DNA of 36,540 bases. It comes from a bacterium. GTDB lineage: Bacteria; UBA6262; WVXT01. The position numbers and the translations under genes are program-made. The stretch spans positions 15,337 through 51,876 of the forward strand of contig WVXT01000046.1 in the NCBI GenBank assembly GCA_011773355.1, given 5' to 3'. Of the stretch, positions 19,537 through 36,540 are shown piece after piece (position 1 is the first letter of the stretch; the number at the start of each line of letters is the position of its first letter). The notes under the pieces are model-generated. The model was not told where the DNA came from. It did no database searches and saw nothing but the letters and a program-made list of their open reading frames with translations.

Positions 19537-20943
19537 ATGAGAAGAGAAATACTGGTCGATGTAGCTGAAGATGAAGTGAGAATTGGTCTGGTTGAAGAAG
19601 GACATCTCGTTGAGTTATTCATTGAAAGAATAGAGGAGAAGAGTTTGGTAGGAAATATTTATCAGGGAACAGTGGTGAATGTTCTAAAGGGGCTCAGGTC
19701 TTGTTTTCTGGATTTAGGGTTGGAGAAGAACGCTTTTCTTCCCTTAGGAGAGCTTCCGCCGAATAAAAGAGACATAAAGAAGGGCGATCGTTTATTGGTT
19801 CAGATAGTAAAGGAGCCAATCGGAGAGAAGGGAGCCAAGGCCACAGTCAAGATAAGTCTTCCTGGAAGGTATCTTGTTTTTATGCCCAATGTGCAGCATA
19901 TCGGGATATCCAAGAGAATCCAGGACGATAAGGAACGGGTAAGATTAAGAGCAATAATTAAGGAGATTATTCCCCAGGGAGCAGGATTTGTTGTGCGCAC
20001 AGAAGCCAGCGGTCATCATAGAAAGGATTTAATTCGCGAATGCAGGTATCTTTTGAATTTGTGGCGCATAATAGAGAAAAGGAGAGAGACAATCGGGGAA
20101 GGACATCTTGTGCACAAGGCATTTGGTCTAATCTTCTATGTAGTGCGAGAACTATTTACTGAGGAAGTGGATAGTCTAATCATAAATTCCAAGATGGAGT
20201 ATAAACAAGTCAGAAGTTATGTGAAGATGACAGATCCTCATCTTCTGAGGAAGCTAAATCTTCATAAGAGAAAATCGCCACTTTTTGATATGCACAATTT
20301 GGAAAAGCAACTGTCCAAAATGAAAGACCAGAAAATTTTCCTGCCTTGCGGAGGTTCAATTATCATTGAACAAGCAGAGGCTTTGACTGCAATTGATGTC
20401 AACACCGGCAGGTTCGCCGGCGGAAAAAGTCTGGAAGAGACAGCCTTCCTCACTAATTGTCAGGCAGCTGAGGAGATTATGCGTCAGGTTCGCCTGAGGA
20501 ACATCGGGGGACTAATCATTATAGATTTTATTGAGATGAAACAGAAAAAAAATAGAGAGAAAGTTATGGATGTTCTACGCCAACAGACCCTGAGAGATAA
20601 AGCGAAGATAGATTTATTACCCATTACTAAGCTGGGACTGGTGGAGATGAGCCGTCAGAGGAGAAGGGAAAGTATCCTTGATACACTTTGTCAACCCTGC
20701 CCTTACTGTGCAGGCAGTGGATTAGTATTTTCAGAAAAGACTATGTTTATAAAGATTAAGAAAGAAATTTTAAGGACGGCAGCGCAAACAGAGAGTAAAT
20801 CTCTTAATGTGTTTATGAATCCCAGAATTGCTCCCCTGTTTGACGAGAAGAAAGTAGAACAGATTTCTAAAATGACCGGTAAGAGAATAAAAATCCGACC
20901 CGATTATAAACTACACGTAGAAGAGTCTGAGATTAGTCCATAA
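19537..20943 (+). CDS. rng: ribonuclease G/E family endoribonuclease
   Basis: It cleaves single-stranded AU-rich RNA in rRNA processing and mRNA decay. An S1 domain with insert lies at about residues 35-125 (GNIYQGTVVNVLKGLRSCFLDLGLEKNAFLPL). The DNase I-like catalytic part holds the two metal-binding aspartates in ALTAIDVNTG and GGLIIIDFIEMK. The zinc-link CPYC is near the C-terminus (CQPCPYCAGSGLVF). Length of 468 residues, without a long scaffold tail, indicates the RNase G-like form. GGGAG precedes the ATG. Its end overlaps the convergent minus-strand gene by 11 bp. Confidence 0.94.
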   Translation: MRREILVDVAEDEVRIGLVEEGHLVELFIERIEEKSLVGNIYQGTVVNVLKGLRSCFLDLGLEKNAFLPLGELPPNKRDIKKGDRLLVQIVKEPIGEKGAKATVKISLPGRYLVFMPNVQHIGISKRIQDDKERVRLRAIIKEIIPQGAGFVVRTEASGHHRKDLIRECRYLLNLWRIIEKRRETIGEGHLVHKAFGLIFYVVRELFTEEVDSLIINSKMEYKQVRSYVKMTDPHLLRKLNLHKRKSPLFDMHNLEKQLSKMKDQKIFLPCGGSIIIEQAEALTAIDVNTGRFAGGKSLEETAFLTNCQAAEEIMRQVRLRNIGGLIIIDFIEMKQKKNREKVMDVLRQQTLRDKAKIDLLPITKLGLVEMSRQRRRESILDTLCQPCPYCAGSGLVFSEKTMFIKIKKEILRTAAQTESKSLNVFMNPRIAPLFDEKKVEQISKMTGKRIKIRPDYKLHVEESEISP

Positions 20944-22354
20944 AAACGACTTTTTTGTTTTCAGAAGTAAGTCTGGCACTTTTTTTCTTTTCTTTCCAGA
21001 TGGGATCGTAGATATTGTGGATTTCCTGACTGTAGGAATTAAGTCCTTCGGCAATCGCTCCTCTCAGTAAGTCGTCTCCTTCATCCGTAGCCCGGGCGCC
21101 ATAGCTATTAACCAGTTCTCTTAACACCCATGGCTGGTCGATAATCATACAGGGCGTGAGGAGGTTATCACTATATGCCTGGGGAGCATCTTGGGCTTGT
21201 TGCATTCTCCTTATAGCCTTAAAGAAAGGGGAGTTTATTGCTTCCCGGAGAGTTTTGTTATGAATATTATCCACGGCAAAATGGACGAAAGTGCAGGGTT
21301 CTACATCTCCTTTATTATTAATGTGCAGGAATAACCTTCCGGCCATGCAACCTTCCACGTGTGGCCCATCGTTCCAGAAATCCCCTATAAAGATCTCTTT
21401 ACTGTCTCTCCACCTGGTCACCTGTTGTCGCAATCTATTTCTCTGTCGGGGCGTGGGCATCATCTCCAGGTCGGGTTTCATCCCTATGGGGATGTACTGG
21501 AAGTACCAGCCAAGATAGCAACCTTTATCTGCCATAAGGTCAATAAATTCATCGCTGGTAAGGGCATCTGCATTCTGCCGGGTCATTGTGGCGGAGAAAC
21601 CGAAAATACATCCTTCCTCTCTCAAATTATCCATTGCTTCCATAATTTTCTTCCACACACCTTTGCCCCGACGGCTATCAGTCTCTTTTTTAAAACCTTC
21701 CACACTAAGGTTTACCTCCACATTTCCTAAGTCTGCCAACTTCTTAGCTGTTTTTCTATCTATGAGTATCCCATTAGAATAGACCTGGAAATACACATCA
21801 TCGTGCTTTTCATATACATCATACATATCTTTTCGCAAAAACATCTCCCCTCCCTGGGTGGTGATGAAGTATATTCCCAAATCTTTAGCCTCTGAAATTA
21901 TTCTATCTATAGTTTCCAGGGGAAGGTCGTTTTCTATTGAGTATTCTCGCGTGGAGCATCCTCTACAATTTAAATTGCAGCGCATAGTGGGGCTCAACAC
22001 TAAGAAGAAGGGAGGTCCGACCCCCTCTCTTAATCTTATCTCCTGTCTTTTGCCACTTCCCATAAGTAGATTGTTAATGAAGAAATTCTCTACTAGCTTA
22101 TCTACGCATTCTTTGTTTGGGCGGGTAAGTAACTTCTTACCCAATTCTATACTGGGATGGCCTGACCGGAAAATTTCTATTAAATTTCCTATTTTCCTTT
22201 TAGTTTCTAAGTCTACTGTCAACTTCCGTGCCAATATAAGCATAATGGCCAGATTACTATTGGAAGCTCTGGGAACGAGCTTGAGAATCCTTCTTATGAG
22301 CTCTTTCTGGCTGTAGCTTTTAAAATTTCTTTCTATTTCCTTAAGAATATGCAT
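20933..22354 (-). CDS. radical SAM protein with C-terminal auxiliary cysteines (paralogue 1)
   Basis: This radical SAM enzyme, 473 residues with my start, has an N-terminal helical region of about 110 residues. The cluster motif is Cys126-Cys130-Cys133 (SPTMRCNLNCRGC), with the glycine-rich TTQGGEMFLRKD afterwards. Three further cysteines (GCMAG, EPCTF, TPCMI) in the C-terminal part resemble a SPASM/twitch-type auxiliary site. The open frame reaches up to 22417, but a promoter lies at 22424-22451, so I start at the ATG at 22354, six bases after GAGG. It is the only minus-strand gene. The substrate is unknown. It is clearly paralogous to the product of 26566-28020. Confidence 0.85.
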   Translation of the reverse strand: MHILKEIERNFKSYSQKELIRRILKLVPRASNSNLAIMLILARKLTVDLETKRKIGNLIEIFRSGHPSIELGKKLLTRPNKECVDKLVENFFINNLLMGSGKRQEIRLREGVGPPFFLVLSPTMRCNLNCRGCSTREYSIENDLPLETIDRIISEAKDLGIYFITTQGGEMFLRKDMYDVYEKHDDVYFQVYSNGILIDRKTAKKLADLGNVEVNLSVEGFKKETDSRRGKGVWKKIMEAMDNLREEGCIFGFSATMTRQNADALTSDEFIDLMADKGCYLGWYFQYIPIGMKPDLEMMPTPRQRNRLRQQVTRWRDSKEIFIGDFWNDGPHVEGCMAGRLFLHINNKGDVEPCTFVHFAVDNIHNKTLREAINSPFFKAIRRMQQAQDAPQAYSDNLLTPCMIIDQPWVLRELVNSYGARATDEGDDLLRGAIAEGLNSYSQEIHNIYDPIWKEKKKSARLTSENKKVVFMD

Positions 22355-22423
22355 AATTAACCTCATAAAGCTATATTTGTTCTCATTAACAGATACTTCG
22401 TGAGGCGAATTATTCAAAAATAG

Positions 22424-26047: not shown

Positions 26048-26425
26048 ATGAAATCTAAAGCTTCGGAGTTAGTTAATAGGGTATTGTTAGCAGGACTGGG
26101 TTTAGCCGCCCTGACTCAGGAGAAGGCAAAAAAATTGGTGGGACAGTTCTTAGCAATAGAAGGAGTGGGCAAGGGAGAGACTGCCGCTTTCGTAGATGAA
26201 CTGGTAAAAAAAGGGAAAGATACGGAGAAGAAGTTGACAGGCTTGGTAAAGAAAGAGGTGGGCGGAATCCTGTCAAAAATTGACTTTGCTTCCAAAAAAG
26301 ATATAGCCCAACTGGAAACGAGAATCAGGAAACTCGAGGCAAAGAGGACAAAGAAGACACAGAGGACAAAGAGAACAAAAAGGACAAAGAGGACAAAGAG
26401 GACAAAGAGGACAAAGAGGAGATGA
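26048..26425 (+). CDS. phasin-like protein with repetitive basic RTK tail
   Basis: The first 95 residues (ELVNRVLLAGLGLAALTQEKAKKLVGQFLAIEGVGKGETAAFVDELVKKGKDTEKKL, then FASKKDIAQLETRIRKLEAK) resemble phasin / polyhydroxyalkanoate granule regulator proteins, mostly helical with a final coiled coil. The last 30 or so residues are a run of R-T-K units, encoded by a nearly perfect 9-bp tandem repeat (AGGACAAAG) at about 26341-26421. A granule protein with a DNA-binding basic tail, like PhaF, has this architecture. No PHA synthase is in the window, so its partner could be another surface, such as a membrane. Confidence 0.7.
   Translation: MKSKASELVNRVLLAGLGLAALTQEKAKKLVGQFLAIEGVGKGETAAFVDELVKKGKDTEKKLTGLVKKEVGGILSKIDFASKKDIAQLETRIRKLEAKRTKKTQRTKRTKRTKRTKRTKRTKRR
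26341..26421 (+). repeat. 9-bp tandem repeat inside the phasin-like gene
   Basis: About nine near-identical copies of AGGACAAAG encode the Arg-Thr-Lys tail. The period is a multiple of three, so copy number changes keep the frame. It is a likely site of length variation between strains. The early copies are degenerate and the last five or so are nearly identical, suggesting recent expansion at the 3' end. Confidence 0.8.
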
Positions 26426-26507: not shown

Positions 26508-26565
26508 GATCAAAAATCGGGAGTGGCAATAATATTTGTAGATGGAGATGGTGGAGGGCAGGAAG

Positions 26566-28020
26566 ATGAACAAGATTATGGGAAAGATTAAGAATTTGGC
26601 GATTGAGCGAATGGCTAGTCAGGCCATAAAGTTGATGGGTAATTCTTCTGATGAGAACTTAGTCAGGTTTGCTTCTCTTTTGGAAAAAGTTGCTGGTAAG
26701 ATAGACTTTGCCCCGCGTAAAGGGCAGGTTGAATATGCCAAGAAACTATTTAAGACCAGGCATCCTTTTACCCAGTGGATGAAGAGAATAGGTAGGGAGT
26801 TGAATCCGAGGTGCAGAGACCAATTCACCAGGATTGTTCTGGTGAAAGAGCACTTCACGAATCAAGACAGAAAAGATAGTTTCAAAGAGAAACACGGCTT
26901 TTTCCCACCAACCCATCTGGCTATTAGCCCCATAACCAGGTGCAACCTCCGTTGCGATGGTTGTTGGGCAGGGAAGTATGCACAGGTTCCGGATATGGAA
27001 ATGGACCTGTTAGAGAAAATTATGTTTGAGGCGAGAGATGAGATGGGTATCCATTTCTACACTATTACTGGTGGTGAACCGTTTCTCAGAAAAGATCTGC
27101 TCGACTTCTGCGAGAAATTTTCTGACTGTTATTTTAATATATACACAAACGGCACTTTGGTCACGGATAAAGCCATAGAGAGGATAGCGAAATTGGGAAA
27201 CGTAGCCCCTATGTTTAGTCTGGAAGGAGGCAGGGAAACTACAGATGCCAGGCGAGGTAAAGGAATCTACGACAAAGTAATCATCACAATGAAAAAGTTA
27301 CGCGATAAGGGGGCCTTCTTTGGCTTCTCCATCACCGAGACCAGGTACAATGCTGAAGAAGTAAGTAGTGAAGCATTCATCGACGAGATGCTGGAGCTGG
27401 GGTGCTTTAATGGCTGGTATTTCCAGTATATTCCCATCGGTTTGGACCCAAATCCTTCTCTTATGTTAACTCCCTGGCAAAGAGATATGATTCGCAGGAG
27501 AATTTATAAGATTAGAAATACCAGGCCCATCTTCGTTGTCGACTTCTGGAACGACGGCCCTGCCGCTGATGGCTGTATGGCAGCAGGTAAGAAATATCTG
27601 CACATTAACTGCAAAGGGGATATAGAGCCCTGCGTGTTTGTCCACTTCGCTTGCGACAATATAAAAGAGAAAAGCCTGACCGAAGCGCTAAAATCTCCAT
27701 TTTTTAGAGCTATCAGGGCGTCCATCCCTTATGAAGGAAACACTTTGCGCGCCTGTATGATTGTTGACCGACCAGAGTTACTGCGCGAATATTGTAGAAA
27801 ATTTAATGCATATCCTACCCATGAAGGTGGGGAGACCCTTATTGGCGTGTTAAGTGGCGCCGTGGACAATTATGCTCACGGAGTTGCCAAAATTTTCAAC
27901 CGGGCCTGGGAGGAAGGTGATTGGATGAAACTCTTCCGCCTTGGGGAGCCAAAAGAAGAAGGGCAAGAGGAAGCCGAGGTAGATGTAGAGACCTGGCAGG
28001 GTTTATCAATGCAAAAATGA
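26566..28020 (+). CDS. radical SAM protein with C-terminal auxiliary cysteines (paralogue 2)
   Basis: With the ATG at 26566 (GGAGG eight bases upstream; an ATG at 26542 lacks one) the protein has 484 residues. Its cluster cysteines fall at 126, 130 and 133 (SPITRCNLRCDGC), exactly as in the paralogue at 20933-22354. It shares ITGGEPFLRKD, the block GWYFQYIPIG and FWNDGP, plus the C-terminal cysteines GCMA, EPC and ACMI. An N-terminal helical domain of about 110 residues precedes the barrel. The substrate is unknown. Its position next to a lipid glycosyltransferase, an epimerase and an SPT-like enzyme suggests lipid or envelope modification, which is inference. Confidence 0.88.
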   Translation: MNKIMGKIKNLAIERMASQAIKLMGNSSDENLVRFASLLEKVAGKIDFAPRKGQVEYAKKLFKTRHPFTQWMKRIGRELNPRCRDQFTRIVLVKEHFTNQDRKDSFKEKHGFFPPTHLAISPITRCNLRCDGCWAGKYAQVPDMEMDLLEKIMFEARDEMGIHFYTITGGEPFLRKDLLDFCEKFSDCYFNIYTNGTLVTDKAIERIAKLGNVAPMFSLEGGRETTDARRGKGIYDKVIITMKKLRDKGAFFGFSITETRYNAEEVSSEAFIDEMLELGCFNGWYFQYIPIGLDPNPSLMLTPWQRDMIRRRIYKIRNTRPIFVVDFWNDGPAADGCMAAGKKYLHINCKGDIEPCVFVHFACDNIKEKSLTEALKSPFFRAIRASIPYEGNTLRACMIVDRPELLREYCRKFNAYPTHEGGETLIGVLSGAVDNYAHGVAKIFNRAWEEGDWMKLFRLGEPKEEGQEEAEVDVETWQGLSMQK

Positions 28021-35284: not shown

Positions 35285-35337
35285 TGCTCTCGTAGCTCAG
35301 TTGGTAGAGCAACGGTTTCGTAAACCGAAGAGGGGTC
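35285..35337 (+). tRNA. tRNA-Thr (anticodon CGT), 5' part only
   Basis: GCTCTCG at 35285-35291 would be the acceptor strand, followed by the D arm (GCTC, AGTTGGTA, GAGC) and an anticodon arm with loop TTCGTAA, anticodon CGT at 35319-35321. The sequence agrees with bacterial tRNA-Thr to about 35337. After that neither a T arm (no GGTTC-like box) nor the matching acceptor strand CGAGAGC is present. Positions 27 and 43 (A/A) do not pair. The tRNA therefore ends within its variable region or the start of the T stem, as expected if an element has inserted there. Confidence 0.8.
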
Positions 35338-35364
35338 AAAAGAAGGGTAGTAAAAAGATAGACG

Positions 35365-35412
35365 AAAATCCCAAAACTTCTTGAAAAATCAAGGAGATTT
35401 GGGATTTTTTCT
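35365..35412 (+). terminator. strong intrinsic terminator
   Basis: AAAATCCCAAA at 35365-35375 pairs with TTTGGGATTTT at 35398-35408. An inner stem (TTCTTGA with TCAAGGA, loop of A residues) extends the hairpin, and the sequence continues TTCTTTTATT. The hairpin is about 44 nt long and U-rich at its end. It stands about 30 bp after the broken tRNA and would stop transcription entering the element from the tRNA side. Confidence 0.85.
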
Positions 35413-35613
35413 TTTATTGGACTTTATCGGAATTTATCAGGTTTTGGCGGACTTTTGGTCAAAAAATGGTTAAAAATTTCAGACCTTTACTTAGGTAGTA
35501 TTGAGCTAAGAAATAATTATAAGTCTATCAGTTTGAAATAGAGAATATATATTAAACTTACAAGTATTATATAAACTAATAGATAAGGAATTTTAGAGAG
35601 TTTTAGGGATATA

Positions 35614-36018
35614 AAAAAAGAATCTCCCTAATTAAAACTTTAGTATGTAATTTTCGACAATTTTCGACACCTTAAAAAAGAATATGGGACAAATAAGGAC
35701 AATTTAAAAAAGAATTTAGAGCAATTTGAAGCATATAAAAAAGAATATAGGACAAATAAGGGACACTCAAAAAAGGATTTAGGACAATTATGGGCAAAAT
35801 TCGAGAATTTTCGCGAACTTAAAAAAGAATATCGCACAATATCGAACACTTTAAAAAAGAGTATAGGACAGTTTAAGACACTTTAAAAAAGAATTTCGGG
35901 CAATTTCGGGCACTTTAAAAAAGGAATAATGAACAGTTTAGAACACTCAAAAAAGGTTTATGGGCAATTTAGGGCAAATAAAAAAGGAATATTGAACAAT
36001 TTCGAACAATAAAAAAAG
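35614..36018. repeat. 32-bp tandem array of phased A-tracts
   Basis: The motif AAAAAAG(A/G)AT recurs at 35614, 35674, 35706, 35737, 35769, 35821, 35853, 35885, 35917, 35949, 35980 and 36012. Spacings are 31-33 bp except for 60 (first) and 52 (between 35769 and 35821). Each unit continues with two copies of a box of the type G(G/A)(G/A)CA about 11 bp apart, as in TTCGGGCAATTTCGGGCAC. Units are contiguous, with no unique spacers. The A-tracts fall about every three helical turns, as expected for curved DNA. The array ends about 50 bp before the recombinase start. Confidence 0.85.
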
Positions 36019-36067
36019 GAATCAATTACCCACTCAATGTCCACTTACCAATAGGAGGTGAAAGATT

Positions 36068-36540
36068 ATGAAAAAGGTAGCGGTCTACGGGAGGGTTAGC
36101 ACTAAGGACCAAGACCGGGAAAGTCAGCTCCTGGATCTAAGGAAGTATGTGAAGCTTAGAAATTGGGAAATTTATCAAGAGTATGTGGACCGGGGCGTAA
36201 GCGGAGCAAAAGAAAGCAGACCGGCGTTAGACAAGCTAATGAAAGATGCAAGAAAGAGAAAATTTGATATTCTCTTGGTCTGGAAGTTTGACAGATTTGC
36301 TCGGTCTACGAAACACTTGGTTACTGCACTGGAAGAATTGGAGGGTTTGGGCATTGATTTTTGTTCTTATGAGGATAGTATTGACACCTCTACGAATCAC
36401 GGGAAGCTGGTATTTACTATTATGGGAGCAATAGCCGAGTTTGAAAGGTCTTTAATCAGGGAAAGAGTATTAGCCGGCGTTCGCAGGGCCAAAGAAAACG
36501 GAATAAGGCTTGGAAGACCTTCTTTAGAAGTAGATATCGA
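36068..36540 (+). CDS. serine recombinase (resolvase/invertase family), 3' end outside window
   Basis: The readable 157 residues begin MKKVAVYGRVSTKDQDRESQ, with the nucleophile Ser11 in the YGRVSTKDQ motif and Arg9. The catalytic arginine region WKFDRFARSTKHLV follows, then DTSTNHGKLVFTIMGAIAEFERSLIRERV (long E helix), and a linker RLGRPSL that normally leads into a helix-turn-helix. This looks like a small resolvase/invertase type rather than a large serine integrase, although the C-terminus is cut off. A GGAGGTG-type Shine-Dalgarno lies just before the ATG. It is probably the recombinase of the element that starts in tRNA-Thr. Confidence 0.93.
   Translation, partial: MKKVAVYGRVSTKDQDRESQLLDLRKYVKLRNWEIYQEYVDRGVSGAKESRPALDKLMKDARKRKFDILLVWKFDRFARSTKHLVTALEELEGLGIDFCSYEDSIDTSTNHGKLVFTIMGAIAEFERSLIRERVLAGVRRAKENGIRLGRPSLEVDI

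Follow-up and report, generated by a model that had tools for sequence, protein, structure and literature searches.

The Locus

The window, which is the whole stretch of DNA analysed, comprises 36,540 bp from a draft genome of 1.3 Mb whose lineage is represented by six species in the genome collection. Near its right end an array of about 370 bases lies beside a serine recombinase gene, in the putative end of a mobile element at a tRNA gene. The features at this end are the following:

35286–35327, plus strand: 5′ part of a tRNA-Thr(CGT) gene, broken off after the anticodon arm (Rfam RF00005, 24.8 bits; gathering score 29)
35309–35327, plus strand: putative att core GCAACGGTTTCGTAAACCG, within the tRNA-Thr(CGT) 5′ part
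35309–35479, plus strand: conserved element end block of ~170 bp, with core, hairpin and 10–11-bp boxes
35365–35408, plus strand: terminator-like hairpin with 20-nt arms (90% complementary) and a 4-nt loop, followed by a T-run
35603–35631, no strand assigned: palindrome TTAGGGA...TCCCTAA around the first A-tract (35613), not an array unit
35649–36019, plus strand: array proper of 11 units with a 31–32-bp step, with paired boxes AAWWWNGRRCA 10 bp apart and A6–7G tracts between them
35796–35815, plus strand: two degenerate extra boxes, recognised from the sequence, which fill a 52-bp gap and were scored as an odd pair
35891–36018, plus strand: 64-bp higher-order repeat, with GG and AA words alternating in the last four units (TRF period 63–64)
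36053–36059, plus strand: AGGAGGT, resembling a ribosome-binding site, ahead of the recombinase gene
36068–36540, plus strand: small serine recombinase of the resolvase/invertase type (Pfam PF00239, 1e-46; PHROG integrase / DNA invertase)

The recombinase gene is truncated because the end of the window is also the end of the contig, the last 111 bases of which have no second occurrence in the assembly. Between 35230 and 36068 there is no open reading frame of at least 70 aa. Elsewhere in the window, a 9-bp GAGGACAAA tandem repeat (26336–26420) encodes the RTK-rich tail of a small protein (26048–26425), and two related radical-SAM-type proteins of ~490 aa are encoded by genes about 4 kb apart (20933–22417 on the minus strand and 26542–28020 on the plus strand).

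Geometry and Helical Phase of the Array

Between 35613 and 36019 there are 12 A(6–7)G tracts, which follow one another at steps of 60, 32, 31, 32, 52, 32, 32, 32, 32, 31, and 32 bp. The first-pass annotation had described twelve such tracts at a regular step with two wider gaps, and this description holds, the steps being 31–32 bp besides the two of 60 and 52 bp. It had, however, counted the array from the first tract (35613). This tract lies in the palindrome and has no normal unit after it, and for this reason the array proper starts at 35649, has 11 box pairs and does not include the 60-bp gap. Each unit consists of two 10-bp boxes (AAWWWNGRRC, followed by A) and then of one helical turn with an A6G tract. 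The two boxes per unit that had been proposed are thus present in all 11 units, but their distance is 10 bp (11 bp in one unit) rather than the roughly 11 bp assumed; the spacings between exact boxes alternate between 10 and 22 bp, with successive pairs 21–23 bp apart. The GC content of the array is 28%.

The regularity of the array is genuine and exceeds chance by far: 9 pairs of tracts are 30–34 bp apart, whereas 2000 dinucleotide shuffles averaged 0.012 such pairs and never exceeded 1. The autocorrelation surpasses the shuffle maximum of 0.42 both at 32 bp (0.57) and at 10 bp (0.47), and TRF detects the array at a period of 32 bp, with a better score at 63–64 bp. The helical-phase structure that had been claimed is also borne out. 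The starts of the A6 tracts fall on one helical face (resultant 0.91 at 10.5 bp), as do the RRCA boxes (resultant 0.94 at 10.6 bp), and the phase is maintained across the 52-bp gap.

A structured or cis-regulatory RNA was considered and rejected, since neither strand of the array folds better than chance, as judged from shuffles (z = +1.07 and +0.47), and a scan against Rfam gave no match up to E = 1.

Box Motif and Matching Within Pairs

The 21 exact boxes yield the consensus A-A-W-W-W-N-G-R-R-C-A. Over the 28 columns that can be compared, the units are on average 75% identical; A6G and CA do not vary among them, whereas box position 6 takes all four bases. It should be noted that the number of invariant columns (13 of 28, as compared to 4.3 expected) is inflated by the choice of anchors: the A6G and CA motifs served to align the units, and their invariance is partly built in. 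Of the earlier statement that the units have diverged in sequence while their spacing was kept by selection, what stands is that some positions are constrained and others vary.

The two boxes of one unit generally carry the same purine pair at RR. This is the case in 20 of 22 cells (expected 11.7; p = 2e-4), and the match persists when the last two units, which resemble a 64-bp copy, are omitted (p = 0.0014). There is no excess agreement within units in the AT run of the paired boxes (p = 0.23), and between facing boxes of adjacent units the RR agreement is only 6 of 20 cells, a value that all shuffles reach or exceed. The matching within units, found at positions picked after inspection of the data and in only eleven units, is a strong lead rather than a proof. 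It argues either for half-sites that are matched or for conversion acting on the core alone; simple slippage by 10 bp should have homogenised the AT run, too. Either way, the unit-specific matched words are an unusual pattern that can be tested, in that they point to selection for matched half-sites or to core-confined conversion over 10 bp.

The Probable End of an Integrative Element

The 5′ part of the tRNA-Thr gene is 93–98% identical over 40 bases to the intact tRNA-Thr(CGT) genes of sister species. In its own genome the gene is interrupted and no intact copy was found; ARAGORN detected no complete tRNA at this site, nor was the 3′ half found by pattern search. The end block is 86% identical to G002:C38:3926–4096 (L237) and 79% identical to G003:C32:12784–12954 (L238, L240). 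These copies are at non-syntenic places, namely after a histidine-kinase gene in G002 and after another 5′ tRNA part in G003. The GCAACGGTTTCGTAAACCG core also borders the end block in G002:C38, there without a tRNA. The tRNA core is thus common to element and chromosome, as it is at the attachment site of a tyrosine integrase. In G003 what comes after the block is the decayed remnant of a serine-recombinase gene (Pfam, 2.8e-11) and a gene for an OLD-like ATPase/TOPRIM protein, the array being absent; the G002 contig stops directly after the block.

From these sequence comparisons, the end block and the interrupted tRNA-Thr gene most plausibly represent the end of a family of integrative elements, with the array inside the element. 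A misassembly at tRNA genes is possible for a single contig, but the occurrence of this block in three species makes it less likely. The array would then mark the end of a tRNA-targeting element family that is common to sister species.

Hairpins like that at 35365–35408, which a simple terminator scan did not list, are present in G001, G002, and G003. Terminator-like hairpins together with 10–11-bp GGACTTAT-type boxes are dispersed in the genus (35365–35408; L241, L242, L243) and are also found before tRNA-Arg(CCT) and after an apt-like gene. A further observation concerns the place behind the orthologous TPR gene in sister genomes: in G001:C57 (L201) a tRNA-Ser gene is cut after the anticodon, and in G003:C64 (L200) only the 3′ half of a tRNA is left. 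Genes for helicase/nuclease-like proteins or ATPases adjoin the tRNA remnants at L201 and L200, as in an integration hot spot.

The Recombinase and Its Relatives

The relatives of the recombinase (31–60% identity) come from Acidobacteria, Proteobacteria, and Ignavibacteria as well as from many uncultivated-virus contigs, and the full-length ones have mostly 180–220 aa. Among relatives within this range, 60% being the highest identity, about 120 upstream regions were readable, and not one of them has a 32-bp array. The supposed tie between array and recombinase fails at this distance, and among such relatives the array is not supported as a general partner of the enzyme. A gene for an excisionase/MerR-type winged-helix-turn-helix (wHTH) protein is found near about a dozen of the relatives; at L144 (5443–5901) such a gene lies directly upstream. 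A promoter scan upstream of the recombinase revealed nothing above chance.

Occurrence of the Array and of the Box

The array is an orphan in the data searched. A blastn search in phages and plasmids yielded nothing relevant, searches for exact patterns in 2.9 million viral contigs turned up nothing but coincidences in low-complexity or coding sequence, and the A6G-array pattern and the unit profile had their only true match among 386 genomes in the genome itself, a weak unit match in G003:C39 being inside a gene. In agreement with the first-pass annotation, which knew of no such system, the literature searched contains no description of this arrangement.

The box, by contrast with the array, occurs elsewhere, in 2–5 direct copies at 10–11 bp in viral contigs and in several contexts. 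For example, three AATTTCGGAC boxes lie between a tyrosine integrase gene and a tRNA-Pro remnant (L299), and box repeats are found inside a replication-initiation gene (L310; phrog_2509, 1.2e-50) and inside a Lin1244_N-type gene (L314). In sister genomes, tRNA-Pro in G002:C74 is followed by a box pair (p = 0.01), and the 5′ half of tRNA-Ser in G001:C57 by a weaker one (p = 0.03). Because it is found in several contexts, the box motif is a direct-repeat site of a phage type that recurs. Of the GAACA-type box pairs, those in viral contigs are mostly in coding or unrelated sequence. The boxes of the end block were also tried as array boxes and were rejected, the weight matrix not being significant.

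The GGGACA direct-repeat pairs at L310 (5558–5579) and L314 (7721–7742) encode the peptide KSGQNRDN/K; such pairs inside phage genes of the replication-initiation type are as expected for an origin within the initiator gene. In other phages, direct repeats of the box (AATTTAGGACA/TTTGGGACA) are situated right behind late-regulator genes (phrog_36) at L301 (2784–2804) and L315 (3577–3598).

What the Array May Be

With moderate confidence we regard the array as a cis-acting platform of the iteron type at which a protein binds, located near the end of an integrative element that has entered the tRNA-Thr gene. From the motif, its spacing and phasing, the matching within pairs and the place inside the element we infer a binder, a complex and a function. 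An element-encoded DNA-binding protein would probably bind, head-to-tail, one 10-bp box per helical turn, the box being an AT-rich run, four variable bases and a C, with two boxes side by side in each 32-bp unit. The A6G turn would serve as a spacer with a narrow minor groove that holds successive pairs on one face, and the 11 pairs, cooperatively bound, would build one higher-order complex. The likeliest use of such a complex would be in initiating replication of the element; nearly as likely it would control excision together with expression of the adjacent recombinase. Replication is somewhat favoured because of the many sites, the AT-rich DNA and the finding of the same box in an initiator gene.

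This assignment as an iteron-type platform is supported by the spacing beyond chance, the phasing on one face, the position-specific constraint and the matched words within units, and also by the same box in phage regions where repeat-binding proteins are expected. It is weakened by the fact that the neighbouring gene is that of a recombinase rather than rep, and that G003 has the homologous element end but no array there. Furthermore, iterons of one initiator normally have no unit-specific words, which counts against it as well. The visible part of the element encodes no initiator, recombination directionality factor (RDF) or other repeat-binding protein; the contig breaks off within the recombinase gene, so that the binder is out of view. 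Provided that the array does function as a binding platform, it offers a compact natural example of direct-repeat sites in matched pairs on one helical face.

A minor but genuine possibility is that the boxes belong to the attachment region of the element, as arm-type sites for the integrase or as sites for the excisionase (RDF), with the array loading many copies to direct excision. The array begins ~320 bp from the tRNA core, similar boxes lie beside an integrase gene and tRNA remnant at L299 and after tRNA genes in G002 and G001, and a wHTH RDF can assemble into filaments on attP where there is no sharp motif (PMC11963761). However, the end block (35309–35479) has 10–11-bp repeats of its own, which whole-motif scores do not single out, and in G003 this block is followed by other sequence, from which it follows that the array is not part of the conserved att region. 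Also the number of exact boxes is far above the five arm sites described for the integrative and conjugative element in the same study (PMC11963761).

It is unlikely that the array is a decaying, functionless tandem repeat that arose by unequal exchange and 10-bp slippage, in spite of the fact that the 64-bp higher-order repeat in the last units and the restriction to a single genome would fit such an origin. Variation of the unit length by 1 bp is also possible under neutral decay, and local gene conversion could match paired boxes. Against this stand the uneven distribution of changes over the columns (an excess of invariant ones that the anchors inflate), the confinement of matching to the GRR core with the AT run of the same boxes left out, and the phase kept over the 52-bp gap.

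More doubtful is that the array constitutes the operator or recombination site of the adjacent small serine recombinase. Although it ends ~50 bp before the start codon and fills the upstream region, its lack upstream of the relatives and the lack of a promoter signal above chance argue against such a role. The sites used by small serine recombinases have inverted half-sites, whereas the boxes are without exception direct repeats, and no long inverted repeat is present besides the hairpin at 35365–35408.

Improbable, in our view, is also that the units are distinct addresses, each with an identical pair of words (GA, AG, GG, AA) that differs from those of its neighbours, in a docking strip of multiple specificity in which selection keeps pair identity; it might be used, for example, by several initiators, integrases or excisionases that are related but come from different helper elements.

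Finally, that the array is intrinsically bent DNA shaping a recombination complex, as the first-pass annotation had suggested, can practically be set aside: the A-tracts do recur every three turns with starts in phase, but in two wedge models the predicted curvature lies within that of the array's own shuffles (end-to-end/contour ratio 0.885 versus a shuffle mean of 0.78 with Bolshoy wedges, and 0.741 versus 0.81 with the AA wedge), whereas phased A-tract controls are strongly curved in both (0.14–0.52).

Comparison With Known Systems

The array resembles an iteron array or a direct-repeat operator array, which were among the readings first proposed, and its assignment to either family is provisional. 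The iterons of plasmids are likewise repeated directly and in helical phase (PMC5043065). With the origins of RepA/pi, of phage initiators that have the origin in their gene, and of RepA_N of the satellite PLE, the array shares multiple direct repeats in helical phase, with an AT-rich region alongside, in noncoding mobile-element DNA. RepA_N iterons of the phage satellite contain a poly-A tract (PMC7145576), as do the units of the array, and the phage initiators are matched by the same type of box inside the L310 initiation gene. The array differs from iteron-type origins in its matched pairs of boxes with unit-specific words and in that the visible part holds no initiator gene. Semi-palindromic iterons as in RepA_N were looked for and rejected, there being no inverted sub-repeats around the A-tracts (flank complementarity against permuted flanks, p = 0.36).

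A second group comprises the wHTH proteins BldC, RdfS, and Xis, which assemble on DNA as head-to-tail oligomers. BldC recognises AATTXXXX(C) direct repeats head-to-tail (PMC5859096), and the consensus of the 21 boxes, AAWWW-NGRR-C, is like this half-site, with direct repeats on one face. The array departs from these systems by its 32-bp units with an A6G turn; the visible element part lacks a gene for such a protein, and excisionase-like wHTH genes are near only some of the recombinase relatives.

The attP arm sites of tyrosine integrases at tRNA genes are similar in that the element end lies in the anticodon arm with 10–11-bp direct repeats beside it, and the box motif at L299 is identical. 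In the array the sites are far more numerous, lie outside the conserved end block and have A-tracts between them.

Finally, there are CCAAAAAAG arrays with a 32–33-bp step directly upstream of genes for ATP-binding proteins in unrelated bacteria (L263, G355:C105; L264, G085:C61; L246, G161:C108), which look like operators of a mobile ATPase family. They have another box sequence, only three copies and another gene family, but share with the array A6G tracts about three turns apart directly upstream of a gene.
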